From NCBI GenBank assembly GCA_020845775.1, contig JADLFC010000046.1, positions 1 through 43,467 on the forward strand: a stretch of 43,467 nt of DNA. Direction: 5' to 3'. Shown here one piece after another: positions 5,255 to 34,840 of this stretch. Both the position numbers and the translations under genes were made by a program. Source of the stretch: Deltaproteobacteria bacterium. GTDB lineage: Bacteria > Bdellovibrionota_C > UBA2361 > SZUA-149 > JADLFC01. A model generated the notes under the pieces. It saw only the letters and a list, made by a program, of their open reading frames with translations, was not told the DNA's origin and ran no database searches. Position 1 is the first letter of the stretch; each line of letters starts with the position of its first letter.

Positions 5255-6649
5255 ATGGCACGAGTAGTATGTGTCGACATGAATGCCGAAAAGCGGCAAG
5301 AACTCAAGGCTTTGCTGGAAGATGCGCACAGAGAATCTCGCCAATCTACTGGATACCTGGAGCCGTCTCAATATGTAAGTTGCTCTAAGGAACAGGTAAT
5401 CGTCAGTTCGCCACCAGACGTAATAGTGATTGGGCCCGGCTTTTCGGTAGAAGATGCTCACATTACATGTAAGGACATAAACGGCATTCATCCAAAAGTT
5501 CCCATCGCCGTAATTCTCGATCCTGCTAATTATTCCTTGCGTTCCATTCGGAGACTAGAAAAGCACGCGCGCTTAATACTTTTAAGCGATGACAAGCCGA
5601 TGCGCATCGTTCATGAGTTGGGTTCGCTCCATCACGCGAAGTCCACAGATCCGCAAGGTAAGCTAATTACTTGTATCGGAGTTAAAGGCGGAGTCGGCAC
5701 GACCTCTGTTGTCGGTGGATTGGCGCATGCTGCCGAAGCTGTAGGCATGTCGGCGGTAGTCGTCGATCTTTCGCCACAAAGCGTCTTTCCATTTTATATG
5801 GGAACAACTACCTGGCAGTCGCCAGAATACCGGTCGCTACTTATGGACCGCATACAGCCGGACAAAACCATCGTGCGAAAGATGGTGACGACTGCTCCCA
5901 ATGGAATAAACTTGTTGTTGCCACCGAGCGGTGGCTTGGATGTGCGAGAACAGTGGCTTCGCAATGAGGAGTGTTTTGAAATCAGCTTGTCGATAATGGA
6001 TTATCTTCGAGAGGATTTCGATCTCGTTCTGGTCGATATAGGTTGCGTCGAAGGCGTGTTGACTTTTGCCTTAAATAGTAACGCATCTGCCAGGCTGGTC
6101 GTGTCGTCAAACGATCCCGCATCTGTTCACTTATTGCGAAATGCGCTTGTTTCCCTTAGCGAGATACCCGGCAGTGCCGGCAGTAGTGTAATACTAAATG
6201 AGATAAACCAGTACGGTATCGACACAAAAGATATTCGATATTTTCTCGACGAGCAGGATGAGCTGCTAGGAACTAATACCCAGTGCTATGCGCTGGCCCT
6301 AGATCCAAGGGCTGGCGCTTGGATTGGCACGAAGAACAGCTTCTATACAGAGGCCCGATCTGCTACGCGCGCAGTTCTCGAGCAAGTTGTTGTTGGCTTG
6401 AGCGGACAGGTGCACAATCCAGTGTTAAGCGACAAGACGCGCCCATCGTCCTTATTGGGGTTGCTCTCTCGCCTGGTTAGGAGAGAGCCAGAGGAGAAGA
6501 GCCAGATCCCAAGAGTGGCCTTGCCGCCGCTAGAGATGCGATCCGATGAGGGCTTGGGGCAGCCGTTTCATAAAGCCGAGGTTCGTTCAGTTGGCAGTAT
6601 GGAAGAGCCGTTTAGGCTGTTTGAGAGTGCTAAGGTCATTAACGAATGA
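5255..6649 (+). CDS. cpaE: Pilus localisation ATPase CpaE/TadZ
   Basis: This 464-residue protein has an N-terminal receiver-like domain (about 1-125) followed by a ParA/MinD-type ATPase. The deviant P-loop is KGGVGTTS with Lys at residue 144; the usual second Lys is replaced by Thr, as is common in CpaE/TadZ proteins. The Walker B-like strand reads LVLVDIG. In Tad systems this protein places the pilus machine at a cell pole or other site. The receiver-like part (VVCVDMNAEKRQ, later DVIVIGPGF) lacks an obvious phosphoacceptor Asp, so it is probably an atypical receiver. It sits second in the operon, directly before the pilin. Function is confident by motif and context. Confidence 0.88.
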   Translation: MARVVCVDMNAEKRQELKALLEDAHRESRQSTGYLEPSQYVSCSKEQVIVSSPPDVIVIGPGFSVEDAHITCKDINGIHPKVPIAVILDPANYSLRSIRRLEKHARLILLSDDKPMRIVHELGSLHHAKSTDPQGKLITCIGVKGGVGTTSVVGGLAHAAEAVGMSAVVVDLSPQSVFPFYMGTTTWQSPEYRSLLMDRIQPDKTIVRKMVTTAPNGINLLLPPSGGLDVREQWLRNEECFEISLSIMDYLREDFDLVLVDIGCVEGVLTFALNSNASARLVVSSNDPASVHLLRNALVSLSEIPGSAGSSVILNEINQYGIDTKDIRYFLDEQDELLGTNTQCYALALDPRAGAWIGTKNSFYTEARSATRAVLEQVVVGLSGQVHNPVLSDKTRPSSLLGLLSRLVRREPEEKSQIPRVALPPLEMRSDEGLGQPFHKAEVRSVGSMEEPFRLFESAKVINE

Positions 6650-6674
6650 AAAAAACTAAGATTGAGGAGGAAGT

Positions 6675-6872
6675 ATGAAAAATATCGTGGAACACGGAGT
6701 TCGAGAAGATGCTGGAGCTTCTAAGTTAGCTGAGGTTCGCGGCAATTTATCCCTAGAACATATTCTCTTTATAGTGGCGGTCGCAGGATTGGCCGGTGCG
6801 GTTGCGACGTTCTACACGGATATCGGAGCTTGGTTTGGTGGCATCACCTTGCCCGAACCCCCAAGTTTCTAG
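6675..6872 (+). CDS. flp: Flp-family type IVb pilin precursor
   Basis: This 65-residue prepilin has a charged 23-residue leader ending in Gly23. The expected cleavage is before NLSLEH, placing Glu at position +5 of the mature protein as in Flp pilins; His replaces the usual Tyr at +6. About 20 hydrophobic residues (ILFIVAVAGLAGAVATF) follow, then a short polar tail. The mature pilin would be about 42 residues, matching the family. A strong ribosome site (GAGGAGGA) precedes the ATG, consistent with high pilin expression. A single pilin copy is present and the needed prepilin peptidase is not in this window. Confidence 0.9.
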   Translation: MKNIVEHGVREDAGASKLAEVRGNLSLEHILFIVAVAGLAGAVATFYTDIGAWFGGITLPEPPSF

Positions 6873-6901
6873 CAGTTTGGGCGCGTTGCTTGGTGTTAAG
6901 T

Positions 6902-7831
6902 ATGGCGGTCAAGAAGAAAAAAATGCCTCGAAGGTTCAGAAGAGCTACGGGGTTTCATGTCTATTTGGCGATTGGAAGCTTTTTGCTAATAGGTGCAACG
7001 GCAATTAAACTCGTTTGGGACGGAAGTGCTCGCAAGTCAACAGAGATTGAGTCGCCCAGATACGTTGCGAATGGATTTGATTTTGTGGAGCTGCCAGTTC
7101 CGTTATCCGAGGTGGAGCGCGGCGCTCCGCTAGGAAGCGTTGAATACGCAACTGTCTCCTGGTCTAGGGCTAACTCGCCAGATAGTTACGTGCAAAACAT
7201 TGAGCAATTTAAAAATGCTCGCGCCATAATGACGCTTGCCAGTAGAGTGCCAATTCCCCTGTCCTCAGTGACGACTGGGGATATGGACACAAATGCGCTC
7301 ATTGAAAAAATTCCCGAGGGCATGAGGGCAATTACGGTAGCTGTGAACGAGGAGACTGCTGTAGAAGGTTGGGCGCAATCTGGAACCTATGTCGATGTAA
7401 TTTCACTCTCTGCGGATTCTAAAGATGGAAAACTAGCGGCTCGCGTAATAGCCGAGAATGTAAAGATTCTCTCGGCCGGCAGATCGCTAGTTCCTAGCGC
7501 AGTGGGAGATACGGCGCCACGAGCCCCTACCACCGTCACCATTCTGTGCAATCAAAAGGATGCTCTTAAGATAAAGATGGCTGCGAAAGTTGGGAGCATA
7601 ACTTTCTCCCTTCGCGGCGTAGTAGATAGCGAGCCTACTCGCGTAGTTACGTTGAATGAAAACACTCTGCACGGTGGTTTGGAACATAACGCCTCGCCAT
7701 CCTCTCGCTACGTGGGAGAAGCGAAGGGGCCAGATGGTTCGGTGTATTATTTGCGAAAAGGGGACTACAAGTGGGTGAAGCGCGGCGCGGCAGTTGAGGC
7801 TGTAGATTCTCCGGAGGCTTCACAACCATGA
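6902..7831 (+). CDS. cpaB: Pilus assembly protein CpaB/RcpC
   Basis: This protein of about 309 residues has an N-terminal basic stretch, one membrane span (VYLAIGSFLLIGATAI) and a periplasmic SAF-like domain. The phrase IPEGMRAITVAVN followed by GWAQSGTYVDVISL is typical of CpaB/RcpC. The ATG at 6902 is preferred because an earlier in-frame start would begin inside the pilin gene; an ATG at 6923, after GAAGAAAAAA, is also possible. In Tad systems CpaB/RcpC works with the outer-membrane secretin CpaC/RcpA, which is normally the next gene but is absent here. Its stop overlaps the cpaF start (ATGA). Confidence 0.87.
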   Translation: MAVKKKKMPRRFRRATGFHVYLAIGSFLLIGATAIKLVWDGSARKSTEIESPRYVANGFDFVELPVPLSEVERGAPLGSVEYATVSWSRANSPDSYVQNIEQFKNARAIMTLASRVPIPLSSVTTGDMDTNALIEKIPEGMRAITVAVNEETAVEGWAQSGTYVDVISLSADSKDGKLAARVIAENVKILSAGRSLVPSAVGDTAPRAPTTVTILCNQKDALKIKMAAKVGSITFSLRGVVDSEPTRVVTLNENTLHGGLEHNASPSSRYVGEAKGPDGSVYYLRKGDYKWVKRGAAVEAVDSPEASQP

Positions 7832-9237
7832 CTTACCGCTCCGGGGCTTATGTGTCAGCAGAGGAAATTCGCCAGCTGTACTTTGGCGCTAGTCATTTGG
7901 CAAAAAAGACTGACGGCGGGACATCGGCTCTGCTTGCTCGAGAGGTCGTAGACCTTACGAGTTCAGCTCGTTTCGTCGTGTCGGAGGCGCGCCGCATACT
8001 TAGCGAGGAGAGAGCTAGGGGGGCAATCGAGCAACATGTTGACGAGGAGACACTCCTAGAACTTGTCCGTAGAATAGAAAGTCAGCACGGAGAGGATTTG
8101 GGGGAGCGAGAGGCACGAGCTGTCGTTCAGGCTTTGCAAGTAATGCGGCTCGACTACGACGTGTTGACGCCGCTGATCGAAAATCCCGAAGTTAGTGATG
8201 TAATCGTTAAAAATTGGAAAGACATAAGTGTTCAGGTTAGGGGAAGAAAAAATCTTCAGACGGATCTTCGATTTCACGATGAGTCTGCTTATAAGGCATT
8301 TGTGCAAAATCTGCTAAAGCGCGTCGGCAAGGCATGCACCGTGAAGCAATCCATTGTAGATGCTGCGATTGAGTCCGATATTCGCGTTTGCGTTACACAC
8401 GAGTCGTTTTCTCCGCCGGGATCTGGCCCCATGCTGACGATTAGAATTGCGCGACACAAGGATGTGAGCATTGAGAAGCTTGCTACCTATCAATTAGCCC
8501 CTCGCGAAATACTTGATTATCTAGCCATGACGATCTCAACCCTTGGCAATACTGCGCTAATTGCCGGCGAGGTCGGAACTGGGAAGACAACGCTAGCGCG
8601 GGCCTTGGCATCGGTCATGCCAGAGCAGGAGGCCATATTGGTCATAGAAGATACTCATGAGATCGTCCTAAATAGGCCCTTTGTCCGAACGTTGCTTACT
8701 AGGGAGGACAATATCGAGGGAGTTGGGCGCATTACTCCCTCGCGCGCAATACGCACAGGAATGCGCATGGCTATGAATCGGGTGGTGTTAGGCGAAATGA
8801 GAGATGGCGAGACGGCAGAGGCATTTATCGATGTGTGCTCGTCTGGGCATGCTGGATTGTCTACTATTCATGCACGAAGCGCCCGAGATGCGCTCGGTAG
8901 GCTGGAGCTGTTACTGTCGCGAGTGAGGTCAGGGGTTGGGGCTGAAAATATCAGGCGCGAGATAGCCAATGCAGTTGGGATCGTAGTCCACCTGGCGGTG
9001 GATAAGACCGGTAGACATCGCATAATGGAGGTTCTCGAGTTGGGTTCGGCGGCGGATGGGTTGCTGCAAGTTCAGCCAATGTTTGCGTTCGTTGGAACCG
9101 AGAGAGGGTCAAAATGGAAAAGGCTAAGTGGTGTCTCGCGTTGGGATAGGTTGCTACGGAACGCCGGTGTAAACATGCCCGCGGTAAATTGCGAGTTTGG
9201 TTTTGGTAAGGACGCGGCGGAGGGCAGTGATGAGTAG
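7828..9237 (+). CDS. cpaF: Tad pilus assembly ATPase CpaF/TadA
   Basis: This 469-residue secretion ATPase powers pilus assembly. It has an N-terminal helical region, then the RecA-like core: Walker A GEVGTGKTT with Lys at residue 253, an acidic IEDTHEI strand, a Walker B region VVLGEMRDGETAEAF, and the His box GHAGLSTIHARS. Sequence and size fit the CpaF/TadA class, which forms hexamers at the inner membrane. It overlaps cpaB by four bases and is followed 12 bases later by tadB. All catalytic motifs look intact. Confidence 0.93.
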   Translation: MTYRSGAYVSAEEIRQLYFGASHLAKKTDGGTSALLAREVVDLTSSARFVVSEARRILSEERARGAIEQHVDEETLLELVRRIESQHGEDLGEREARAVVQALQVMRLDYDVLTPLIENPEVSDVIVKNWKDISVQVRGRKNLQTDLRFHDESAYKAFVQNLLKRVGKACTVKQSIVDAAIESDIRVCVTHESFSPPGSGPMLTIRIARHKDVSIEKLATYQLAPREILDYLAMTISTLGNTALIAGEVGTGKTTLARALASVMPEQEAILVIEDTHEIVLNRPFVRTLLTREDNIEGVGRITPSRAIRTGMRMAMNRVVLGEMRDGETAEAFIDVCSSGHAGLSTIHARSARDALGRLELLLSRVRSGVGAENIRREIANAVGIVVHLAVDKTGRHRIMEVLELGSAADGLLQVQPMFAFVGTERGSKWKRLSGVSRWDRLLRNAGVNMPAVNCEFGFGKDAAEGSDE

Positions 9238-9242
9238 GAGGT
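9236..9242 (+). promoter_or_regulatory. Shine-Dalgarno AGGAGGT that sets the tadB start
   Basis: This is a near-perfect ribosome-binding sequence overlapping the cpaF stop codon. It is spaced seven bases before ATG 9250 and overlaps the alternative GTG at 9241, so it decides between the two starts. Confidence 0.75.
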
Positions 9243-9249
9243 GGTTTTG

Positions 9250-10119
9250 ATGCTAGCGGGTTTTGCAAAACGCGGTGGTGCTCGAAGGAGGTTGGAGTCT
9301 CTTTTTGTAGCCGATGAGCGCGCAGTGCATGTCGACTCTTTGTTTAAATTGCCCCGATCGGAGCGCAATTCGGAGTCGAGTAGTCTTCTCCTGCTAATTG
9401 AACAAGCGAGGGTTCCGTTGTCTCGAGCAATGCTATTGCTGCTTTGCGCCATCAGCGGCACCGCCTTGTTTGCCTTGTCATCGATGCTGTTAATTAGGCC
9501 GGTAGCAATTGGCTTCTTTGTGGTGGGCTTTATCGCACCTCTTATGTGGCTACGAAGGCGAGCGCGAGAGCGAGCAGTGATGTTTTTAGAGGATTACCCG
9601 AGCGTTTTGCTTGCCACCTCCTCGAGTGTCAGGGCTGGGTTAACTCCAGTAAACGCACTAGAGCGAGCCGTTGAGCTATTACCGGAAAGCAGTTTGTGTC
9701 GTCAGGAGACGAAAAAATTGGTAGCTGATCTTAATGCCAATGTGCCCCTTAGTGTTGCGTTGATGCATTATGGCAGAAGTGTTTGCCTTCCAGAGCTAGA
9801 GCTGTTTCGTATGGCATTTCTCATGGTAATGGATAGTGGGGGAAGATTTGCGCCTGCGCTTAAGAGACTGGCGCAGGTGTCTAGCGATACTTCGGTTCTT
9901 ATGCAGGAGGCGCAAGTGGCGACAGCTTCCATGCGCATGACCGGTAATCTTCTCTTGCTGTTGTTGCCGGTGCTTTTGTCGATACTTAACTCTCAAAACG
10001 ACAATTACTGGAATCTGCTATTAAACCATCCGGTCGGAGAGGCTGCCTCGTCGGTGGGGATAGTCGTGATTGTTGTTGGACAGTTGGTTCTGCGCATTAT
10101 GAGTGATTTTAAGCCATGA
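9250..10119 (+). CDS. tadB: Tad inner-membrane platform protein TadB
   Basis: This protein of about 289 residues is of the GspF/T2SSF type. It has two hydrophobic segments near residues 65-105, the conserved cytoplasmic region (DYPSVLLATSSSVRAGLTP, later MVMDSGGRFAPALKRLAQ) and C-terminal membrane spans. The start at 9250 is chosen because AGGAGGT at 9236-9242 lies seven bases before this ATG; an upstream in-frame GTG at 9241 overlaps the ribosome site itself. With TadC it forms the inner-membrane platform contacted by CpaF. The last bases overlap tadC (ATGA). Confidence 0.88.
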   Translation: MLAGFAKRGGARRRLESLFVADERAVHVDSLFKLPRSERNSESSSLLLLIEQARVPLSRAMLLLLCAISGTALFALSSMLLIRPVAIGFFVVGFIAPLMWLRRRARERAVMFLEDYPSVLLATSSSVRAGLTPVNALERAVELLPESSLCRQETKKLVADLNANVPLSVALMHYGRSVCLPELELFRMAFLMVMDSGGRFAPALKRLAQVSSDTSVLMQEAQVATASMRMTGNLLLLLLPVLLSILNSQNDNYWNLLLNHPVGEAASSVGIVVIVVGQLVLRIMSDFKP

Positions 10120-11033
10120 TTTACCAACTGCTTGCGCTGGGTATTGTCGGTCTGTTGCTTGCTCTGTGGTGGTTGCGAGGGCACCATAATAATCGCAGTG
10201 TCGAGCGAGTAGAATCACTGCTTGCAGGCGAAGATATGTTGTTGGCGCAAGCTGAGTTGGAGAGAGAGGTGGATTCTCGTGGCGGTGCGCGCATTGCATA
10301 TCTGCAATCGAGCTTGGGAAAGGCTGGCGGAATTTCTAGCATGGAGCGGCGCAAGTTAGTGTTTTGGTTGTCGTCGATGCCTATTTTGTCGCTCTGTTTC
10401 GGAGCTGTTTGTGCAGGATTAGCGGGTGGAATTATTGGCGCTTATATTGGAGTGATGCTGTCGCTTTTTTACTACCGACATAGAGTAAGGGATTTTACGA
10501 GGGAGCTTTGCTATCGCCTGCCGATGGTGCTGGAGTCTTTTATTTTGTTAGTGGAGTCTGGACTAGAGATTCTTCCGGCCCTGGAGCGGCTGGTGTCGTT
10601 AGATTCTAATAGTCGCGGTAGGAATCCGGTGATAAAAATACTGAACTTGGTCTATCAGTTGACCTCTCATGGACTGCCTTTTAATCAAGCCTCGAAGTTA
10701 GTAGCTAATGCTTGCAATCAAAAAGTTCTTCGCCATGTCTTGTTGCACTTAGATATAAGTGGCTCGGAGGGAGGGGAGATAATAAAATCTTTGCAGAGCC
10801 TTAGCGACTACGCTCATGCCGAGTGGAAGCAGTCGGTAAGTGTTCGAATAAAGAGGTTGGAAAACAAAGTAGTGTTTCCCATCTTTGCTTCTGTTTTGGG
10901 GCTGTTGGTATTGGCGGCGGCGGGTCCTTTTGCGTCGATTGCCGATTTTAAGGGAGAGATGGAGAAAAGAAGGGCCGATGTATCGTCGGCCAAATCGCTA
11001 ATAAATGTTAACAGGTCTTTGGGGGGAAGGTAG
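10116..11033 (+). CDS. tadC: Tad inner-membrane platform protein TadC
   Basis: This 305-residue protein is of the T2SSF type. It has an N-terminal span, a pair of hydrophobic segments in the middle (FWLSSMPILSLCFGAVCAG and the following stretch), the conserved cytoplasmic part (YRLPMVLESFILLVESGLEI, then GSEGGEIIKSLQSLSDYA) and a final membrane span. It starts within the tadB stop (ATGA overlap), so the two are translationally coupled. It is the second platform subunit of the Tad machine. Confidence 0.88.
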   Translation: MIYQLLALGIVGLLLALWWLRGHHNNRSVERVESLLAGEDMLLAQAELEREVDSRGGARIAYLQSSLGKAGGISSMERRKLVFWLSSMPILSLCFGAVCAGLAGGIIGAYIGVMLSLFYYRHRVRDFTRELCYRLPMVLESFILLVESGLEILPALERLVSLDSNSRGRNPVIKILNLVYQLTSHGLPFNQASKLVANACNQKVLRHVLLHLDISGSEGGEIIKSLQSLSDYAHAEWKQSVSVRIKRLENKVVFPIFASVLGLLVLAAAGPFASIADFKGEMEKRRADVSSAKSLINVNRSLGGR

Positions 11034-11036
11034 AGG

Positions 11037-11804
11037 ATGTTATTGGATGCGTTTTATCGAATGCGCTATCAGCTAAAGACCCCGGTATCCGTTGTGGATG
11101 CTCTTAGTAGAATTGCGCCTCCTAGTATAGTGAGGAGGGTAGCTAAGTCTACGCCAGCGGGTCAGTTAATCGAAAGAGTTTCTGATCTGAGTGGAGATGA
11201 GAGCGATCGGGTCTTGGGTAAGGTGGGTGCATTGCTGGGCTATTCTGTGCTTGCCAGGCCGAGTTGCCCAACTCAGCAGGCAATTGACCTTAGTGGCTAC
11301 TCAGCAAATCAGTTGCGGTGTTTAGGTCTGTTGCCGCAGATCGATAAGAGTAGCTACAAACTAGTGTTTTCGGATCCGTCCGCAATCGATCGTGCCACAT
11401 ACGAAAGCCAGGGAATACCGCTGCTGTTGTCAACGGATATGGCTATTCAGGCCGCGTGGAAGGAGTATGACGGCTTAAAATTATCATCTCAGATGCGGGT
11501 ATCCGAGGAGACGCTAAAAGCGGTATTTGTGGAAATACTGTCTCATGCACATCGCGAAGGGGCGAAAGAAGTGTTTGTTGGCGCACCTACTAGATCGAAT
11601 TACGAGTTTATCGGTAGGGCAGGGAAGCATCGAGGCTCGATACATTTAAGTATCTACTTATCGCTTTGCGAGTTGGTGCAGCCCAGTCAACCCCTGGTAT
11701 GGGCGTTGGATGATGAAAACATAGAGAGCATAGTCGCTGGAGTAGCGCAGGATGTAATTTGTCTGCGCTGGAATGTTCGCGCTTTATCCATGCTTGGAAC
11801 ATGA
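11037..11804 (+). CDS. GspE/PilB N-terminal-domain protein lacking the ATPase core
   Basis: This 255-residue protein has two parts matching the N-terminal half of a type II secretion or type IV pilus ATPase. A MshEN-like part (about 55-150) includes LVFSDPSAID and an AIQAAWKEYDGL end. A part like the first subdomain of the ATPase (about 155-230) includes VEILSHAHREGAKEVFVGA, which mirrors the LxxAxxxxASDIHxEP region of GspE/PilB. The RecA domain, Walker A and Walker B are absent and the frame ends cleanly. It starts three bases after tadC with GGAAGG upstream. I infer an adaptor that binds the platform or CpaF, perhaps regulated by a nucleotide such as c-di-GMP as some MshEN domains are. Confidence 0.7.
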   Translation: MLLDAFYRMRYQLKTPVSVVDALSRIAPPSIVRRVAKSTPAGQLIERVSDLSGDESDRVLGKVGALLGYSVLARPSCPTQQAIDLSGYSANQLRCLGLLPQIDKSSYKLVFSDPSAIDRATYESQGIPLLLSTDMAIQAAWKEYDGLKLSSQMRVSEETLKAVFVEILSHAHREGAKEVFVGAPTRSNYEFIGRAGKHRGSIHLSIYLSLCELVQPSQPLVWALDDENIESIVAGVAQDVICLRWNVRALSMLGT

Positions 11805-11817
11805 GGGTAAAGAAGCT

Positions 11818-13683
11818 ATGAACTTTTCCTTAGCCTCAGCAATTAGATTAGATGTCGCAGTGTTATCGCTAGCCCTTATGGGTAGTTGTCTCTATTGCGT
11901 AGTTTTGCAGTTTCGCTTGCATAGAAGGAGGCTCGAAGGATGCCGCTTGGTAGAAAGTGTTAAGCAATTGTTGCAGCCTCGTCCAGCCAGCGTGGATGCA
12001 GTGTTTGCTGAGCGAGATATGCAGCGATTGTGGAATTTTTTTAAGCTCACCCGGCTAAATGCTAATGTCCAAACAAATGTTACTAGTCAGACCTATAATG
12101 AAGCCATTCATTTAACAGAAGAATTGGCAAAGGTGTCTCATGAGAAGAATCTAACCTCGCAAAAGCTCGTGGAAGTGCTAAGTAACGTTGGCCCCGAAAT
12201 AAAGGCGGTTGCAGTTGTGCTGAAGAATGCGCGCTCTAATGCTCTGGAGATAGAGTCTGTTTTTGGCGTTCCAGCTAGAAGAGTGGAGGAAGCGCTTTTA
12301 GTTCTATTCGATGCTCGCTTTGATCCTGTGTGCTCATCATCAGAACGCGCCTGGGGTTATGTGAATCCCAATAGAGGCGATCTGGAAGATTTCTCTGCCT
12401 TTGATATAGGCATGTCGTTGCTGGTGCCTCTAGAGGGAGTAGTTGGTCTTATGGGGGGAGTGTGGTTGGGTTTTAGAAAAGGTAGTGGAACACTAACTCC
12501 GGAGCGTAAGACTTTTGTTAAAGCCGTTGCGCAGCATGCCGCTGCATCTTTTTATGCCGCGCAGGCGGCTTTAGAGAAGACTACGGCGACTAAGCGCGAG
12601 CGCGACATTATTCTTGGTATGTCGCATGACTTGCGCACGCCAGGGAACACGGCTTTATATTGCGTGACTTCTTTGTTAGATGGAGCACGTGGTCCATTAT
12701 CCGATGCTCAATTGGCAGACCTAAGGGTCATTGAGCGCGCTTTGTATAGTCAGTTTAGTATTTTTGAAGACCTCTTTGATTTTGCCAAATATCAAAACGG
12801 AATGTTGCGGCCGCAGCCTGCTTGTTTTCTGCTTTCAAAAATTCTCGTATCTGTTGTAAGCGATTTTAGGAGAGCTTTTGAGCTAAGGAATATAGAGTTT
12901 TTGTGTGACAAGATTCCGGAGGAGTGTGTTCGCGTAGATAAGAGGCATTTTCAGAGAATTCTTTTGAATCTCCTTTCCAATGCAGAAAAATACACTGATG
13001 CCGGTTCTGTTAAGGTTCAGTTTAGCCTTAGGCCGGATTTCGTCGAGATTCACATTTGCGACACTGGGATCGGCATTCCATCAGCGGTTAAAAAGCAGGA
13101 CTTGTTTCAACAGTTTCAGCGGTTTGAAAACGCTAGAGGTAAGCAAGGAGTGGGCGTAGGCCTAGCTATTACAAAGGCGCTAGCTTGTGCCAATGAGGGA
13201 TTTTTGGATTACCGGCCAAATTTTCCTAGGGGGTCGATTTTTACTGTTGGCTTGCGACGGGGGGCCTTTAGCGAGGTCGTCGATAGTTCTAGTTCGGTTG
13301 GTGCTGTCGTCGAGAAGCGCATTGCGCTGCCGACAATAGTTATTGCTGATGACGACGAGGGGATAAGAAATACCTTTGCGCGTTACGCAGCGGGAGTGGC
13401 GAAGAATGTCGTGCGGGTATCTAATTTAGCAGATCTGCGAGAGCTCATTTCTCGAGATGGCATCGATTTGATGATTTCAGATGTGGAGTTTTCTGACGGC
13501 AGCGTCATTGAAATGCTTGAAGAGGGGATTGTTAAGTGCAAGGTGATACTAGTTTCGGGCATCACCGATTTAGTGGAGCGCTACCCGCATTTAGTTAGTC
13601 TTGGAGTGATGGCGCTCGAAAAACCCCTTTCCAGAGAAGTGCTATTAGATGCAATTGCGCGAGTTCGTGATGGAGGGATGTAG
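11818..13683 (+). CDS. Hybrid histidine kinase of the Tad operon
   Basis: This protein of about 621 residues has an N-terminal membrane span (residues 10-30), a GAF-like sensory region (about 100-255), and a HisKA domain with MSHDLRTP and the phosphoacceptor His at residue 270. The HATPase_c domain is intact (N-box LLNLLSNAEKY, DTGIGIP, GVGVGLAI). A C-terminal receiver has acidic DDDE, phosphoacceptor Asp at residue 555 in MISDVEF, and Lys in EKPL. All catalytic residues appear present. ATG 11818 with AAAGAAG upstream is preferred to an in-frame ATG inside the preceding gene. The signal is unknown; by position it probably controls pilus assembly, possibly through the degenerate kinase at 4526. 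Confidence 0.9.
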   Translation: MNFSLASAIRLDVAVLSLALMGSCLYCVVLQFRLHRRRLEGCRLVESVKQLLQPRPASVDAVFAERDMQRLWNFFKLTRLNANVQTNVTSQTYNEAIHLTEELAKVSHEKNLTSQKLVEVLSNVGPEIKAVAVVLKNARSNALEIESVFGVPARRVEEALLVLFDARFDPVCSSSERAWGYVNPNRGDLEDFSAFDIGMSLLVPLEGVVGLMGGVWLGFRKGSGTLTPERKTFVKAVAQHAAASFYAAQAALEKTTATKRERDIILGMSHDLRTPGNTALYCVTSLLDGARGPLSDAQLADLRVIERALYSQFSIFEDLFDFAKYQNGMLRPQPACFLLSKILVSVVSDFRRAFELRNIEFLCDKIPEECVRVDKRHFQRILLNLLSNAEKYTDAGSVKVQFSLRPDFVEIHICDTGIGIPSAVKKQDLFQQFQRFENARGKQGVGVGLAITKALACANEGFLDYRPNFPRGSIFTVGLRRGAFSEVVDSSSSVGAVVEKRIALPTIVIADDDEGIRNTFARYAAGVAKNVVRVSNLADLRELISRDGIDLMISDVEFSDGSVIEMLEEGIVKCKVILVSGITDLVERYPHLVSLGVMALEKPLSREVLLDAIARVRDGGM

Positions 13684-13687
13684 TAGT

Positions 13688-15118
13688 GTGGGCGTGAACT
13701 ATAGGTGCGTAGGAAATGTCGTGGTTTTTATCAGAGGACTGAGATTCACGTTGGTGAGTTCGATTATCGTGCTTTCCGCCATGCTTATAGTTGACGCTGT
13801 CGCAGAGGAAAACGTCATTTCAGTAATGGACGTCACATTCCCTTGCGAAAATTGCTATGTCTTTCCGAATGGTGAGTGCGAAATTGAAGTGGACGGCGAA
13901 GTGCGAATTCTTTCCACTGGCGAGGCTTTTAATAAGCTAATTAGCTACGCGAAGGACGATATTGAATATGCCAATGCTCTATCTGTTCTCGAGCTTCGCA
14001 ATGTTATTTTTTCGGAGAATCTGTCGCCGGAGCAAGTTTACGATGTGCTATTTGTCTTGGCACGTACCGCTCATGGTTCTGAGGTTATTGCTAGTAATGG
14101 GCGCGAGCTTATCTCGCGGTATCACGAGATAGTTTATCAAGCGGTATCGAATGGAGTTTTTGGCGAAGCGGTTTTGCTTAAGTTATGGGAGCAAGTGTCT
14201 TTAGGAAAAAGGGATTTCGGGCGCCTCCGCACGTTGTTAGCTTATAAAGTTCCATCGGTAGGAGTTAATGCGCTATTGTCAACTATTAGCGCAGATAGTT
14301 TTGAGGCGGCGTTTAATGCGTTGATTGAGATCTATTCAGTTCTTAACGAGGTAGACGCTAAGGAGGCAGAGGTGATTTATCCGGCGGTAAAAGCTTCGCT
14401 TCTTTGTAGGATGTCGTCTAGTGGTGATGTATCCCAGATCTGCTCAAAGCAGATGTTAGCCGAATTGCCTAGTGCAGTTTCTAGGGTTTTGTTGAGAACG
14501 CATGCGGTATCGCTGCTTTTCGCTATCGATGATCTAAGCGATCCGAATGAAATTTTAAGTCGCATTAATGCTACTGATTATCGGCAGTTCCGCAATTCAC
14601 GTGCTCATGGCGCTCTGTTGAGACTTATAGAATTTGCCGAGAAGGATGCTGAGTTTGCTAAGATCTTTTTGAGCGAAAAGTATTCTGACATGAGGAAGGT
14701 TTTTTCGCAAAGCGATGCTGAAATTAGAAATCGCCTTGACGGCTTGGTTAAGGGTGTGAGTCACGGGGGTGCGACTTCGTGGTGGAGATCGGCATTCTCG
14801 ACTTGGATGGGGGTGGTAGTTCTTGCCATAATTATCGTCGCAGTTGTTGGCTTTTTGTTTGTCGTCTTTTTGCGCAAGCGGCAAGCAAACTTCTCGAGCC
14901 GACAAAAATTTCACCTAGAAGCCCTTTACAGTAGCGAATTGGGCAATCTCTTAAGCGAGTTTAGTCTGCCAATTAACGCAAGTGCGGCGGCATTAAAATC
15001 AGCTTACCGCCTAAGAATTATGGATCTGCACCCAGATACCGGAAATGGCGATGTCGTTGAACTAAACAATCTTAAGAGAAAGTTTGAACGTGCTTTTTAC
15101 CTACTTAACGGCCGTTAG
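13688..15118 (+). CDS. Membrane-anchored J-domain protein (Tad operon)
   Basis: This protein of about 476 residues has an N-terminal signal-like segment (FTLVSSIIVLSAMLIV), a long helical extracytoplasmic region with few recognisable motifs, one membrane span near the C-terminus (VVVLAIIIVAVVGFLFVVF) and a short cytoplasmic J domain with the HPD motif in DLHPDTG. The J domain would recruit and stimulate DnaK at the membrane. The start is uncertain: GTG 13688 follows GGAGGG (13672-13677), but ATG 13649 or 13670 would overlap the kinase gene. The same architecture occurs at 34841-36274. It ends the operon, convergent with the OmpA-domain gene, and no terminator is seen in the 40-base gap. Confidence 0.78.
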   Translation: MGVNYRCVGNVVVFIRGLRFTLVSSIIVLSAMLIVDAVAEENVISVMDVTFPCENCYVFPNGECEIEVDGEVRILSTGEAFNKLISYAKDDIEYANALSVLELRNVIFSENLSPEQVYDVLFVLARTAHGSEVIASNGRELISRYHEIVYQAVSNGVFGEAVLLKLWEQVSLGKRDFGRLRTLLAYKVPSVGVNALLSTISADSFEAAFNALIEIYSVLNEVDAKEAEVIYPAVKASLLCRMSSSGDVSQICSKQMLAELPSAVSRVLLRTHAVSLLFAIDDLSDPNEILSRINATDYRQFRNSRAHGALLRLIEFAEKDAEFAKIFLSEKYSDMRKVFSQSDAEIRNRLDGLVKGVSHGGATSWWRSAFSTWMGVVVLAIIIVAVVGFLFVVFLRKRQANFSSRQKFHLEALYSSELGNLLSEFSLPINASAAALKSAYRLRIMDLHPDTGNGDVVELNNLKRKFERAFYLLNGR

Positions 15119-15158: not shown

Positions 15159-16034
15159 CTAATTCGCGGCCTTGCGGCATTGTATAGCTACTCTTCGGTT
15201 CTTATTGCGCCCTTCCGAGGTGGAATTGTCTCCCAGCGGGAATTTGCTTCCAGCTCCTTCGGTCGAAGCTGATTTTTGCAGCCCATGTTGTGAAAGGACT
15301 TTTAGAACGTTATCAGCCCTTAGTTTGCTAAGAATCGCGTTTGATTGATCTTCGCCGGTAGTGTCGCTATGTCCAACAATAACTATCCTGCCAGGGCATT
15401 CGTTCAGCCTAGAAACTAATTCTGCAATTAGGCTACTATTGACGTTTAGTGCTTGAACTTCAGCGGGTTTGTATTGATTTGGGTATATAACTTCCTTGCC
15501 AACCGTGAATTGTTGCTGCGCCGAAGTCGTCTTGGTAGTCTTGCTGTCTAGCGGCAGTGTGTCAGTAGGTTGGGTTGGTTCTGTAGATGGAATTTGTGGA
15601 GCCGGAGTATCTACTGCTACTGATGTATTAGTGGCGACTGTCTCAGGGGATGGTGAAGGAATGTTATTTTGCAGTTCTGCCGTTTGTGAAGTTGTTGCTG
15701 AATCTGGAATATTTTCTTGCTGTGGAATGGCTTCTGGAGACTGTCCTGATTGCTCTGGCTTGATGTCAGTTACGGCCGTCGGTTGTGCAGTATCGCCTGT
15801 GAGCTTTTCATCTCTATCCTGGTTAACGGCGGCAACTATTGTGTTTTCAACTGCGCTCTCTTCAGTTGCCAAATCTTCTTCTTGTTCTTCTTCTGCCACT
15901 TGCGGCTCGTTTCCAGTGAATATTGCCATCATTATTAGAATGATAATTGCCGGCACGAATAAGATTTGAAACAATTGCGCTATTGCTGCGCGTCGCTTGC
16001 TGATTATCTCTTCTTCTTCATTTTCTATAGTCAT
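15159..16034 (-). CDS. Inner-membrane protein with periplasmic OmpA-like domain
   Basis: This 291-residue protein has a short acidic cytoplasmic N-terminus, one membrane span (about 21-40), a long low-complexity linker rich in Thr, Pro, Gln and Glu (about 45-175), and a C-terminal OmpA/MotB-type peptidoglycan-binding domain. IVIVGHSDTTG and the closing NRRVAIQ are diagnostic. The layout resembles MotB-like or Tol-Pal-associated anchors. GGAGGT precedes the ATG and only two bases separate it from the upstream roadblock gene, so the two are co-expressed. It could tie the sensory complex encoded upstream to the cell wall. Confidence 0.85.
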   Translation of the reverse strand: MTIENEEEEIISKRRAAIAQLFQILFVPAIIILIMMAIFTGNEPQVAEEEQEEDLATEESAVENTIVAAVNQDRDEKLTGDTAQPTAVTDIKPEQSGQSPEAIPQQENIPDSATTSQTAELQNNIPSPSPETVATNTSVAVDTPAPQIPSTEPTQPTDTLPLDSKTTKTTSAQQQFTVGKEVIYPNQYKPAEVQALNVNSSLIAELVSRLNECPGRIVIVGHSDTTGEDQSNAILSKLRADNVLKVLSQHGLQKSASTEGAGSKFPLGDNSTSEGRNKNRRVAIQCRKAAN

Positions 16035-16036
16035 GG

Positions 16037-17371
16037 CTAATTACCTCCCCCTGTCACGAGTTTGTTGAGGGATATTAAAGGAGAGTTAACTGGCTCTCCC
16101 ACAGCTGTCACTAAAGCGTCTCGACCAATTATAACATAGATTGCATTGTCTGCGGATTGGCTCACCCACTGCCGTGGCGCACCTAGATCGAGTAAATCGC
16201 CGATTTCGGCAACCGTGCCCTCTGATAATTGTGCTACCGCAGCCGCCGTTTGTCCATCAATTTCTCCATGTTCTTCGACAACTGTTCCCGAAAAATCGGC
16301 ACATACTAGACCATTCAATTTATCGCCAATGCTTAATAAGTTTGCAAGTTGCCCCATTGTCGTGCGTCCTTTGTCTGTTTGTGTAATCTCTCTATCGTGA
16401 TTTTGAGAGGTTTTTTCCTCTCGATTTTGAAAACCTCTAGGAAATTCAATTAAAGTAGCGCCGTGTGATTCGCTACTAGTCTTAACATGAGCGGCTGGAG
16501 GTTGTGGTGCTTTTTCACTCAAACGCTCTAGCTTTTGCTGTCGCCCGATATCGTGTCTGGAAGAAGCTGAGGCCGAAATGAAAACATTAGCGATATCAGG
16601 AGATTCGCTAGGATGCGAAAAACCAGAACTCCAATCGCCCTGTTCATCTAGTTTTCCCATAGCTCTAAGTATGGCTTCGTTTAAAGGTAAGAAAGTCATA
16701 GCTTCAGGAGGCGGTATAAAAACCCTATGCTCCTGACACCAGGTATTTTGCAGTGGAATTAGCTCAATTAGTGCGTCTAGTCCAACTTTGCTGAGCGTTT
16801 CAGCATGAACTAACATGTTGTTTTCTATGTAGATACTTCCGTGCCACCCTTTGGAAGAGACCACAACAAGCATCATTAACCCCTCGTTTTTTACTGATGC
16901 CCATAGTACTTTTAGAAGCGAAGTTGCATGATATTTGTAAGCTTTGCCGCTAATAATAGAAAGTAGTTCCTTCTCGTGTTTCATGCTGGAGTCCATGCTG
17001 CCAACAACTAAGATGGCTCCTTGGCGCCTAAAATTTTCTAGCTCGTTTGAATTCGGTTCTTTGTTAACGGCAATAACTAATGGCGGACTCCAAACGGCAG
17101 GAAGAGGGAATGATGGAGAGAGGCTTTGACCAGCTAAGGAAGGATCTGACACATGTGCCAATACAAATGCAATTCGGTTTTTTGCTACTATATCATTAAC
17201 TTCTCTCTCGCTCTTAGCCTTTAGAACGCTAAACTTATATCCATGTAAGGAGTAGAATGCCCTAATATTGTTTGCTACAAGTTCGTCATTCCCAAGGTAT
17301 AGACAGCAGTGAGCGTTTAGCGGCTCTGCGGTCGCGTTTGCTCTCCATAGCTGTTGTTTATTTCTATCCAT
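16037..17371 (-). CDS. Receiver-like / DUF4388 / roadblock-type regulatory protein
   Basis: This 444-residue cytoplasmic protein has three apparent parts. The first (about 20-140) looks receiver-like, with strands CCLYLGNDE and AFVLAHVSD. The second (about 145-235) carries GWHGSIYIENNMLVHAET...GLDALIEL, matching the DUF4388/PatA N-terminal pattern. After a disordered linker, a C-terminal roadblock/LC7-like domain (about 340-440) has LNGLVCADFSGTVVEEHGEIDG. Roadblock proteins usually regulate small Ras-like GTPases (as MglB does MglA), but no GTPase is present here. It lies between another roadblock-like gene and the OmpA-domain gene with gaps of 10 and 2 bases. Domain calls are by eye. Confidence 0.68.
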   Translation of the reverse strand: MDRNKQQLWRANATAEPLNAHCCLYLGNDELVANNIRAFYSLHGYKFSVLKAKSEREVNDIVAKNRIAFVLAHVSDPSLAGQSLSPSFPLPAVWSPPLVIAVNKEPNSNELENFRRQGAILVVGSMDSSMKHEKELLSIISGKAYKYHATSLLKVLWASVKNEGLMMLVVVSSKGWHGSIYIENNMLVHAETLSKVGLDALIELIPLQNTWCQEHRVFIPPPEAMTFLPLNEAILRAMGKLDEQGDWSSGFSHPSESPDIANVFISASASSRHDIGRQQKLERLSEKAPQPPAAHVKTSSESHGATLIEFPRGFQNREEKTSQNHDREITQTDKGRTTMGQLANLLSIGDKLNGLVCADFSGTVVEEHGEIDGQTAAAVAQLSEGTVAEIGDLLDLGAPRQWVSQSADNAIYVIIGRDALVTAVGEPVNSPLISLNKLVTGGGN

Positions 17372-17381
17372 AATGTTGTTA

Positions 17382-18131
17382 TTAGTGAACTTGATCTCCG
17401 AGTGCTTTGGCTAAGAATTCCTCTCTTTGTCCTGCCCCTGGAAGATTCACGGCTAATCCGTGTAGTAAGTCAGCAACTTGTCCAATTCTCAATGTCCTAG
17501 GCGTTACCCCTAAAGCTTCGAGCTCCTGCTTGATTATGTCTACTGCATTGCTGCCAAAATAGTGAACGCAGGTCTTTAAGATATGGTTAATCATGGCTTC
17601 TCCCACAGCATCGCGAGGAATTCTTTGTGCCTTGTCTGGCATCTCGTCTAAAAGAGCCTGTAGGTTTCCAGAAGGACTTCTTGGTCTTACTGGTGGTGTA
17701 TTAGTTTCTAGCGAATTTAGCTTTGTGAGATTGGTGCTGATTGTACCCTTCCTGCTTGCGCTAACTCGGGCTGGAGAAATAGAAACGGAAGCAGCTGATT
17801 TCTCAAGTTTCATGCTGGCGGCGTTAAGAGCAACGCTAATCATGGAAGTGTTTACTGAGTTTTCGAAAATAACTACAAGGTACAAATTGTGAACGTGTCT
17901 AATAAGCACCGATGCTCGTTCAAATGTTGCAGCAAATGATGAAATATTGTCCGAATCGCTAATAGAGCTATTGATCGCCGCTAGTTCCTCCACTTGCCTA
18001 ACTACTTTTGACAGTGTCGATGCATTATAGGGAGGCTGTAAGGAGTGTTCTTGGCAGCCGTAATGCTCGTCAAAGATAGCACTTCCCATAACGCCTTTTG
18101 TTTTTTCCAGTATAGCTAAGATGTTTTTCAT
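17382..18131 (-). CDS. Roadblock/LC7-like protein with C-terminal helical domain
   Basis: This 249-residue cytoplasmic protein has an N-terminal part (about 5-110) resembling a roadblock/LC7 fold: GVMGSAIFDEHYG near the start, then FERASVLIRHVHNLYLVVIFEN and a closing helix of small residues. A Ser/Thr/Arg-rich linker follows, then a helical C-terminus (about 175-245) of unknown type. Roadblock domains dimerise, so it may pair with the roadblock domain of the next gene. It starts 34 bases after the Amt gene, in the same operon. The function suggested is a scaffold or GTPase regulator; the family assignment is tentative. Confidence 0.6.
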   Translation of the reverse strand: MKNILAILEKTKGVMGSAIFDEHYGCQEHSLQPPYNASTLSKVVRQVEELAAINSSISDSDNISSFAATFERASVLIRHVHNLYLVVIFENSVNTSMISVALNAASMKLEKSAASVSISPARVSASRKGTISTNLTKLNSLETNTPPVRPRSPSGNLQALLDEMPDKAQRIPRDAVGEAMINHILKTCVHYFGSNAVDIIKQELEALGVTPRTLRIGQVADLLHGLAVNLPGAGQREEFLAKALGDQVH

Positions 18132-18165
18132 AAAGATTTACTCCTTAACGCAGATTTAAAGACTT

Positions 18166-19521
18166 TTATTCGGCATCTTCATCTGAGTCTAGTTCCGAAA
18201 CTTTTAACCCTCGAATTTCGTGCATTGCCGGCACTCTAATTCCCACCGAAGATTTAATTAGGAAGAAACATAGCAAGGATGTGCCTACGGACCAGGCAAA
18301 GCACACGACTATTCCAATAACCTGCGAGAGAAGCTGTTCTAGCATAGAGCCGGCTGGTAGCGACTCCGGTTTCCCAAACAGAGCTACGCATAGAAGACCC
18401 CAGGCTCCGCAAAAGCCGTGAACGGGAACCGCCGCCACTACGTCATCTAAGCGCAATTTCTTCAAAACGAGATCGTAACTTAAGTTGTGAATTATTCCTG
18501 CCAATAGGCCGATTACAGTTGCGGAAACGGGAGAGACTACGTCGGCGCAAGCCGTTATTGCAACGAGTCCGCCGAGAATGCCACCGATGGATTTTGCGTA
18601 TATGTCTTCATTTCTTTGAAACAAGCAGCAATGCGAAAAGGCAAATATTCCTCCTACTGCACCCGCAATATTTGTGTTTAGAATAACGCCAGGAACTTGC
18701 TCGTTCCACTCGAGAAAACTCCCCCCATTAAATCCCCACCAGCCTACCCATAAAATAAATGTTCCAACGCATAGCCAGTACGGGCTATTGGTGCGTTCTA
18801 GGTTGCAGAGCGTTCCATCGCTTTTGTAACGGCCGATACGTGGACCAACTATCCAAGCTCCTACTAATGATGACCAACCGCCTATGTTGTGAACTACGCT
18901 AGCGCCCGCGAAATCCCTAAATCCAAGTTGCTGTAGCCAGGGCTGGTTGCTGTAGACCAAGCCATTCCCCCATACCCAGTAGCTAAACATCGGATAAATA
19001 AAGCAACCCATGCAAATCATAAAAGCTAGGTAAGCCTTAAAGCTAGTGCGCTCGGCCATAGCGCCGGAAACAATAGTGGCCGAAGTGCCTGCAAAGGCAA
19101 GCTGAAAGACGAAATACATTATCTCCCGTGGCTCGTCCAAGCCGTTGCCAAGGAAGAAGCCCTTGCCGATAAAACTGCTATCGCTAAGCCCGAAGTTGAT
19201 GGCAAAGCCGAAGAGAAAGTATACAATCGTTACTACAACCCAGTCTCCAACGTTCTTTAGAGCAACTACTGTTGTGTTTTTCTCTCTTATGCATCCGAGG
19301 GTGAAGCACAAAAATCCAAGCTGCATTCCAAAGATAAGCATTGCGCATATAATTACCCAAAGCATATCTAACCTGGTGCTCACTACCTCTACTGCACTGA
19401 TAGCGCCTTGAGCAAAAACGACATCTGGTGCGATTAACGCCCATATCGCCACTGCAAGAATAGCTGAAATGGCTATTTTACTGCTGTGAATAGTAGCTTT
19501 GGTGTTGAATATTGTGTCCAT
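18166..19521 (-). CDS. amt: Ammonium transporter (Amt/MEP/Rh family)
   Basis: This 451-residue protein has an N-terminal leader followed by about 11 membrane spans. Signature regions include DFAGASVVHNIGGWSSLVGA, holding the Asp and first pore His, and the second pore His in PVHGFCGAWG. The GAMAERTSFKAY region and the cytoplasmic tail GLKVSELDSDEDAE also fit. It would conduct ammonium across the inner membrane or act as an ammonium sensor. No PII/GlnK gene is adjacent, unlike typical amtB operons. It lies 18 bases after a heme-protein gene and 34 bases before a roadblock gene, which suggests a sensing role. The family call is confident. Confidence 0.95.
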   Translation of the reverse strand: MDTIFNTKATIHSSKIAISAILAVAIWALIAPDVVFAQGAISAVEVVSTRLDMLWVIICAMLIFGMQLGFLCFTLGCIREKNTTVVALKNVGDWVVVTIVYFLFGFAINFGLSDSSFIGKGFFLGNGLDEPREIMYFVFQLAFAGTSATIVSGAMAERTSFKAYLAFMICMGCFIYPMFSYWVWGNGLVYSNQPWLQQLGFRDFAGASVVHNIGGWSSLVGAWIVGPRIGRYKSDGTLCNLERTNSPYWLCVGTFILWVGWWGFNGGSFLEWNEQVPGVILNTNIAGAVGGIFAFSHCCLFQRNEDIYAKSIGGILGGLVAITACADVVSPVSATVIGLLAGIIHNLSYDLVLKKLRLDDVVAAVPVHGFCGAWGLLCVALFGKPESLPAGSMLEQLLSQVIGIVVCFAWSVGTSLLCFFLIKSSVGIRVPAMHEIRGLKVSELDSDEDAE

Positions 19522-19539
19522 ATGACTGATGCCCTAATG

Positions 19540-20322
19540 TTACTTGTAAATTGCTAGGCTAATCGCACCGCCAAGCTCCCCTAGCTTTCCTCCTTCGGTT
19601 CTACCACCGGTTATATCTAGACTTCCCTTTGGTTCTCCATGGCATTTCAAGCAAGAGTTTCCGTAATATTCTGGTAGAATAAAACGAAATGCTTGTTTGC
19701 CTCTATGAAGATTCTCTTCGAAAAATGCTTTCCCTTTTGTCCATGTTGGCAGGCTAAATCTCGTATCCAGCACTGTTGCCTCCCAGGAGTCTGGATGGTT
19801 AGCTAAGTTGCGCACGTATGTACTTGGAGCTGTAAGCTTAATAAACATTTTGTCTCGCATCTCTCTGTTAAATGCATCGGCTACCTTCTTGGCGAAAACT
19901 GCCGGTAAAAAGTTTTTATAACGCACGCCCGGCTTGTTTATGTTGTCTTGAGCTTGATCCATGACTGAGCGGATTGCGTTAGTGAGCGCTACGACACTTT
20001 CGTTAAACGGTAGGGGCATGCTCGTCATGTCGTAGTACTTGTTCTTTGCCATTTCTTCGACTTTTGTAGCCGTAAGATCTTTATTGCCAATATCGGGGTT
20101 ATTTATCAGATCCTGGTTGTCTGAAATAACAGCTCGAGCTGCCCGAAAGTAAGTAGTTATCTCAGTTGATATTTGTTCGTAGTTTACTTGCTGCGCTGAA
20201 ACTATTCCCGTTGGCGAAATGAATAGCGAAATTATAATAAATAAGAATAAACAATAAACTCCCGCTGAGAACTGTTGCTTTTTATTCTTGATTTCTTGCC
20301 TTCGGAAAATTGCTGTAACCAT
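19540..20322 (-). CDS. Exported c-heme protein with Tll0287-like (DUF3365) domain
   Basis: This 260-residue protein has an N-terminal signal segment (VYCLFLFIIISLFISPTG) and a periplasmic domain of the DUF3365/Tll0287 type. A CxxCH heme-attachment motif, CLKCH, is at residues 224-228, followed by GEPKG and a Gly-rich end (TGGRTEGGKLGELGGAISL), the usual pattern. Such domains are known as heme-binding sensors fused to signalling proteins. Here it stands alone, upstream of the Amt gene and in the same operon. I infer a redox or gas sensor subunit that may act with Amt. Confidence 0.85.
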   Translation of the reverse strand: MVTAIFRRQEIKNKKQQFSAGVYCLFLFIIISLFISPTGIVSAQQVNYEQISTEITTYFRAARAVISDNQDLINNPDIGNKDLTATKVEEMAKNKYYDMTSMPLPFNESVVALTNAIRSVMDQAQDNINKPGVRYKNFLPAVFAKKVADAFNREMRDKMFIKLTAPSTYVRNLANHPDSWEATVLDTRFSLPTWTKGKAFFEENLHRGKQAFRFILPEYYGNSCLKCHGEPKGSLDITGGRTEGGKLGELGGAISLAIYK

Positions 20323-20398
20323 AATTCTGTGTATTTAAAAAAATTATTATCTATTAAAATTATTCACTCTCTTAAGTCTTATCTCTAGTGAGCGCCTG

Positions 20399-20695
20399 TC
20401 ATTGTAGGAGAAAAAGCCTTTCGCAAGCTTTCTTAACGATTTCGCGAGCTTCGTCTCCTTTGACGTTTTTAGTGTAAATCGCTATACATTCGTCCGCAGT
20501 TTGTGGCCCAAACATGCCAAGACCCATCTTCTTGGTTTCTTTGTTCGGGAAACTTTTATCGCAGTCGTCCAGGACTTTTTGCACAAATTCAAAAGAACCA
20601 CCTTTTTCAATTTTCATTAAAATGCATTGATAGTAATTTTGCGGGCCAAAACGGCCTACTCCAGCAAAAAGAAGCAAAATAATCAAAACGCGCAT
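20399..20695 (-). CDS. Small secreted protein with a duplicated Cys motif
   Basis: This 98-residue protein begins with a hydrophobic signal-like segment (VLIILLLFAGVG). It contains two copies of a motif of about 35 residues: RFGPQNYYQCILMKIEKG...VLDDCDKSF and MFGPQTADECIAIYTKNVKG...VKKACERLF. Each copy has FGPQ, a first Cys and a second Cys near the end, which could form a small helical disulphide unit. I recall single-copy versions as short unannotated proteins in many proteobacteria. It lies 76 bases upstream of the heme-protein gene on the same strand and may be the first gene of that operon. Function is unknown. Confidence 0.65.
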   Translation of the reverse strand: MRVLIILLLFAGVGRFGPQNYYQCILMKIEKGGSFEFVQKVLDDCDKSFPNKETKKMGLGMFGPQTADECIAIYTKNVKGDEAREIVKKACERLFLLQ

Positions 20696-34818: not shown

Positions 34819-34840
34819 TGAACGTTATGAGTTAAGACCA

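Follow-up and report, generated by a model that had tools for sequence, protein, structure and literature searches.

With which partner does an ammonium transporter of the Amt family work when the genes beside it encode roadblock-like proteins instead of GlnK, the nitrogen regulator with which Amt normally works and is almost always discussed? The question is raised by positions 15,159 to 20,695 of contig JADLFC010000046.1 (assembly GCA_020845775.1) from a deltaproteobacterial genome assigned to Bdellovibrionota_C; the whole stretch of 43,467 nucleotides that was analysed is called the window. In order of transcription, the minus strand encodes a small secreted protein, a Tll0287-like c-heme protein, Amt, two proteins named RB1 and RB2, and an OmpA-type protein. 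The reading that we favour, at a probability of about 0.47, is that this module is a GlnK-independent ammonium transceptor in which RB1 and RB2 serve as the cytoplasmic adaptor.

The gene set recurs outside the window. RB1, searched for in 58 related genomes independently of Amt, turned up in just two genomes, that of the window and G022, which belongs to another family of the same class, in both cases beside Amt. The G022 locus (L004/L030) reads OmpA-Amt-RB1-RB2, with identities to the window proteins of 57% for Amt, 27% for RB1 and 21% for RB2. When 84,980 species genomes were scanned with the Amt pair and the neighbouring genes inspected, two further bearers emerged: L032, from a deltaproteobacterial bin assigned to Myxococcota (RB1-Amt-RB2-Ser/Thr kinase-BBP2 porin), and L035, also from Myxococcota (Amt-small gene-RB1-OmpA-kinase with FGE-sulfatase domain-RB2-kinase). 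Hence four genomes, from two deep lineages, have Amt, RB1 and RB2 at one locus, and three of these loci include the OmpA-type anchor; the original prediction had proposed this check. Gene order is shuffled among the four, which argues for functional linkage rather than merely inherited synteny. All four genomes found to encode RB1 have it adjacent to Amt, for which the rough chance probability is about 2e-13, and a whole-genome search of 17 genomes with the RB1 profile gave close matches only at Amt loci, besides one distant roadblock in an MglAB cluster. An RB2 search of the class returned the window protein only; orthologues elsewhere were recognised by position and family profile. Among open-licence papers, no description of this gene composition was found, in line with the earlier claim of its novelty.

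Ser/Thr kinases are the recurrent neighbours of the module in Myxococcota. L032 and L035 each have a kinase gene following RB2, and the two products are full-length orthologues (35% identity over 583 amino acids). A partial version of the locus, L041 from Myxococcales, reads Amt-small gene-OmpA-kinase with FGE-sulfatase domain-Tll0287-like histidine kinase-BBP2 porin; its FGE-sulfatase-domain kinase is orthologous to that of L035 (35% over 560 amino acids), and its BBP2 porin to that of L032 (39% identity). The two FGE-sulfatase-domain kinases (L035:9019-10974 and L041:6327-7838), linked to Amt and OmpA, each combine a Ser/Thr kinase with an FGE-sulfatase (SUMF1-like) domain in a single protein.

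RB1 (17382..18131, minus strand, 249 amino acids) and RB2 (16037..17371, minus strand, 444 amino acids) yielded nothing usable in single-sequence scans against Pfam, NCBIfam and PHROGs. For RB1, no Pfam match was obtained and the gathering score of PF03259 was not reached; RB2 matched DUF4388 (PF14332) only, short of the cut-off (E 0.17), and a PF03259 search of the whole window genome was equally without a match. A family profile built from four RB1 sequences does align, through its positions 2-110, with the roadblock structure 7yh1 (E 6e-5); as a control, it also detects a true roadblock (E 0.0015) that an unrelated genome encodes in an MglA/MglB cluster. In the AlphaFold2 model of RB1, residues 2-115 follow the roadblock order helix-strand-strand-helix-strand-strand-strand-helix, with pLDDT values mostly of 76-89 over residues 1-115 except in a loop near 56-63, and a fold search of the PDB places 7yh1 first (E 1.2e-6, TM-score 0.85 by target), followed by LAMTOR/Ragulator and MglB. 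Family profile and predicted fold thus confirm RB1 as a roadblock protein, with its roadblock/LC7 domain at about residues 1-115, a disordered linker and a C-terminal helical domain at about 178-243.

The architecture of RB2, predicted to comprise a receiver-like N-terminus, a DUF4388/PATAN-like middle, a disordered linker and a C-terminal roadblock (about 341-441), is supported more weakly than the assignment of RB1. Its orthologue in L035 matches DUF4388 (E 0.011) and then Robl_LC7 (PF03259; E 0.012) in the expected order; the DUF4388 matches of this orthologue and of the window protein fall at the corresponding place, both below the cut-off. The C-terminus of the G022 orthologue is matched by the RB1 profile (E 0.008), and residues 341-441 of the low-confidence model show the roadblock order of elements, with roadblocks as best fold matches and MglB first (E 1.4e-6). 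The N-terminus displays only an alternating strand-helix pattern in the model and gives no PF00072 match; the four orthologues share no phospho-acceptor Asp at the third strand. NlpC/P60, the best single-sequence match for RB2, was rejected as a short chance stretch at odds with the model. The two roadblock-like proteins of the original prediction therefore fail the single-sequence Pfam thresholds, as does DUF4388, yet by family profile and fold the roadblock call holds for RB1 and is probable for the C-terminus of RB2.

The transporter itself (18166..19521, minus strand, 451 amino acids; Pfam Ammonium_transp 1e-99) belongs to PF00909/TIGR00836. Because every pore residue tested is kept (the twin His, Asp, Phe and Trp), transport is probably possible. 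Its short acidic C-terminal tail lacks GLDxxEHG, the motif typical of GlnK-paired Amts. In the phylogenetic tree it falls, with SH-aLRT support of 99, into a clade of 24 rows that also includes Amts from Bacteroidota, Planctomycetota, Myxococcota and Actinomycetota; the GLDxxEHG tail is present in none of the 24, versus 19 of the 22 other Amts, two of the remaining three being truncated. Within the window's class, Amts that do not belong to the clade (L008, L010) adjoin a PII gene. The window genome (G000), which is 95.8% complete, encodes one Amt and gave no hit in a PII search that was positive in 13 of 14 control genomes; PII was also not found in the G022, L032 and L041 genomes. The Amt had been suggested to stand apart from GlnK, and both the tail and the PII search agree with this. 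Elsewhere, Amts with long C-terminal extensions resembling sensor or kinase regions were noticed in a cyanobacterium and in Pirellulaceae (L049, L055, L058).

Most other members of the clade encode a different protein in the position of the roadblocks. Directly 3' of Amt, at distances of -14 to +123 bases, 18 of the 23 non-window members carry an unnamed protein or domain of about 65 residues that matches no Pfam family (sizes of about 62-84 amino acids; e.g., L031:9453-9671, L034:9302-9556, L093:9167-9460). The gene follows Amt after 123 bases in L033, 32 in L035 and 1 in L041. A profile of the family detects the L093 case, outside its training set and right after Amt, with an E-value of 1.2e-16. 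In Flammeovirga pacifica (L039) the domain is fused to the C-terminus of Amt, and in several Acidimicrobiales it forms the N-terminal part of proteins of about 200 amino acids. Many Amts with this gene have an acidic D-E-L-x-x-L-L-like end. The window, L030 and L032 lack the gene, and their slot is filled by RB1 (window, L030) or RB2 (L032); L035 has both the gene and the roadblock genes. The protein of about 65 residues may be the general GlnK substitute of the Amt clade.

The last gene of the run encodes the OmpA-type protein (15159..16034, minus strand, 291 amino acids), earlier described as a peptidoglycan-binding membrane protein. The description holds: the Pfam OmpA domain (PF00691) is found at 1e-12, with the peptidoglycan-binding Asp and Arg present (GHSDTTG, KLRADNV). 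A cytoplasmic N-terminus, one transmembrane helix, a long periplasmic linker and the peptidoglycan-binding domain make up its layout, and it is anchored in the inner membrane.

In the transceptor that we propose, the Amt trimer would bind or conduct ammonium as usual, and its cytoplasmic face with the altered acidic tail would be read by an RB1/RB2 roadblock assembly instead of GlnK. RB1 and RB2 would form a membrane-tethered adaptor that signals the transporter's state to an effector. For Myxococcota, the neighbouring Ser/Thr kinase genes most likely supply this effector; in the window genome it would be a kinase encoded elsewhere. The OmpA-type protein would pin the complex to peptidoglycan. 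In the window organism, the periplasmic Tll0287-like protein may add a redox or nitric-oxide input. In eukaryotes, Ragulator/LAMTOR works with the amino-acid transceptor SLC38A9 and Rag GTPases. A more specific version of the transceptor is doubtful. In it, a heteromeric roadblock scaffold would read the transporter directly, without a small GTPase, and pass the ammonium state to Ser/Thr kinases, as a bacterial counterpart in kind of SLC38A9-Ragulator; the module would then be a single branch within an Amt clade that does without GlnK and usually pairs with the protein of about 65 residues.

Several observations weigh against the transceptor. No RB1 was found in the L041 genome though Amt, OmpA, the kinase and the Tll0287-like kinase are present, so the roadblocks are not obligatory. 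The L035 genome encodes a PII protein. The model of RB2 is poor (pLDDT 42). Kinases are not adjacent to the module in either genome of the window's class. Finally, the full bearers number four only, and all are metagenome or single-assembly bins.

The first alternative to be weighed is compatible with the transceptor and holds that the Tll0287-like protein and the small secreted protein are the periplasmic sensor of the module. The Tll0287-like protein (sCache_heme; 19540..20322, minus strand, 260 amino acids) is periplasmic and stand-alone, matches PF11845 at 1e-17 and carries a CXXCH motif (CLKCH); no relative was found in the PDB. Tll0287 domains are c-heme Cache domains according to a 2026 preprint, in which those fused to signalling proteins behave as NO sensors and the stand-alone ones are redox proteins with an axial Cys (PMC12889525). 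An alignment shows the axial Cys in each of the class's four stand-alone relatives, whereas the window protein has no Cys at this position, and a tree, to be read with caution given its long branches, sets the window protein apart from these four. Both points favour a sensor, as do the gap of only 18 bases to Amt and the membrane histidine kinase L041:7835-9226, which has a Tll0287-like CxxCH sensor region and lies a few genes from Amt. On the other hand, Tll0287 is absent from the module loci of G022, L032 and L035, a PF11845 search of the G022 genome gave none, and a second stand-alone Tll0287-like protein in the window genome (L163:102-839, contig C163), 55% identical, lies away from any Amt; by reading, its gene adjoins CutA-like and NqrA-like genes. 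The c-heme identity given in the original prediction thus stands, but not the place of the protein in the core of the module: going by its distribution among the loci, it is a local addition, perhaps a genuine one given the Tll0287-like kinase in L041. The small secreted four-cysteine protein (20399..20695, minus strand, an open reading frame of 98 amino acids with two FGPQ...C...C repeats) weakly resembles the VF_A0006 four-cysteine family (NF041602, E 5e-7, below the cut-off). Its gene occurs in no other bearer locus, its membership of the operon is uncertain, and it is not counted as part of the core. A periplasmic sensor made of these two proteins is a tentative proposal at most.

The nearest rival to the transceptor is a local role, in which the roadblock pair would gate or assemble the Amt channel in GlnK's place with no downstream signal. 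The intact pore residues, the single Amt of the genome, the lack of PII and the lack of a kinase next door in the window's class all suit this explanation. We nevertheless consider it unlikely, in view of the recurring linked genes in Myxococcota, for Ser/Thr kinases and a heme histidine kinase, and of the receiver-like and DUF4388-like parts of RB2, which are typical of signalling proteins.

According to the original prediction, the module could report ammonium and redox state to MglA or another Ras-like GTPase and so influence polarity or motility. The roadblock folds, close to MglB and LAMTOR, would fit such a target, and the Myxococcota bearers do have MglA/MglB pairs elsewhere in the genome. 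The PF00025 search was sensitive enough, because it detects MglA in these bearers (beside MglB in two genomes), away from the module. In the window genome its sole match is HflX, and in G022 its single match lies in a frame of 989 codons, too long for MglA; both were rejected as MglA. No MglA-like GTPase is encoded beside the module in any bearer, nor a Ras-like GTPase among the open reading frames of the window between 11.7 and 22.5 kb. Moreover, MglC sets the precedent of one roadblock protein binding to another (PMC7949163). A GTPase of this type as the target is consequently highly improbable. A chance neighbourhood of unrelated genes, to which only the non-conserved Tll0287 and small secreted genes would point, is virtually excluded and is refuted for Amt, RB1, RB2 and OmpA by their recurrence in four genomes, with RB1 always beside Amt in two deep lineages and reordered genes (the rough 2e-13 above).

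The five-gene run from Tll0287 to OmpA has gaps of 18, 34, 10 and 2 bases, and the small secreted gene sits 76 bases upstream of it; coordinates and gaps reported earlier match the open reading frames. Co-transcription is deduced from this spacing alone, because scans for promoters and terminators gave no more than chance-level results and did not resolve the operon borders. The genes on either side are separate from the run: the next one upstream encodes, by reading, a carboxylase subunit, and at the OmpA end a plus-strand gene runs towards it. This converging gene (13649-15118), preceded by a histidine kinase-receiver gene (11773-13683), encodes one of two membrane proteins of the window with a J-domain-like C-terminal segment, the other being encoded at 34799-36274. 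Further away, a Tad-pilus-like run (5255-11804; CpaE-, CpaB-, CpaF-, TadB- and TadC-like by reading) adjoins the hybrid histidine kinase.

If the transceptor is real, a widespread Amt clade has dropped the GlnK-type tail and taken other partners, roadblocks here and the protein of about 65 residues in most others, and ammonium sensing through Amt has been rebuilt more than once. Roadblock proteins would gain a role alongside a transporter and without a Ras-like GTPase, and nitrogen status would be linked to bacterial Ser/Thr kinases. The likeness to Ragulator/LAMTOR-SLC38A9, a nutrient transporter coupled to membrane roadblocks, is functional only, homology having been compared at the roadblock fold, and the module has no Rag GTPases.

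Precedents for Amt-linked sensing are AmtB-GlnK and the Amt5-histidine kinase (PMC10433425, PMC5764959). As in AmtB-GlnK, an intact-pore Amt is followed directly by the gene of its presumed cytoplasmic partner; unlike there, the partner is a roadblock rather than PII, the GLDxxEHG tail is lost and the window genome has no PII gene. Ks-Amt5, a fusion of Amt and histidine kinase, shares with the module an Amt outside the GlnK pairing, with no GlnK encoded nearby, but it lost transport (PMC5764959), whereas the module Amt keeps its pore residues, and the fused kinase is replaced here by separate roadblocks, an OmpA anchor and, in relatives, linked Ser/Thr kinases. Roadblock proteins are paired with sensors in the actinobacterial conservons (sensor kinase, roadblock, domain of unknown function and Ras-like GTPase; PMC13343842), whose operons likewise join a membrane sensor and a roadblock; in the module the sensor would be Amt, and no GTPase is encoded in or near the operon. 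The MglA/MglB/MglC polarity module also uses roadblocks as regulators, and the fold of RB2 is closest to MglB, but here MglA is missing and the roadblock goes with a transporter and an OmpA anchor. HGbRL, a heme-globin protein with a roadblock domain (PMC4476040), similarly pairs a heme sensor with a roadblock, as a fused cytoplasmic globin instead of the separate periplasmic c-heme protein of the module.

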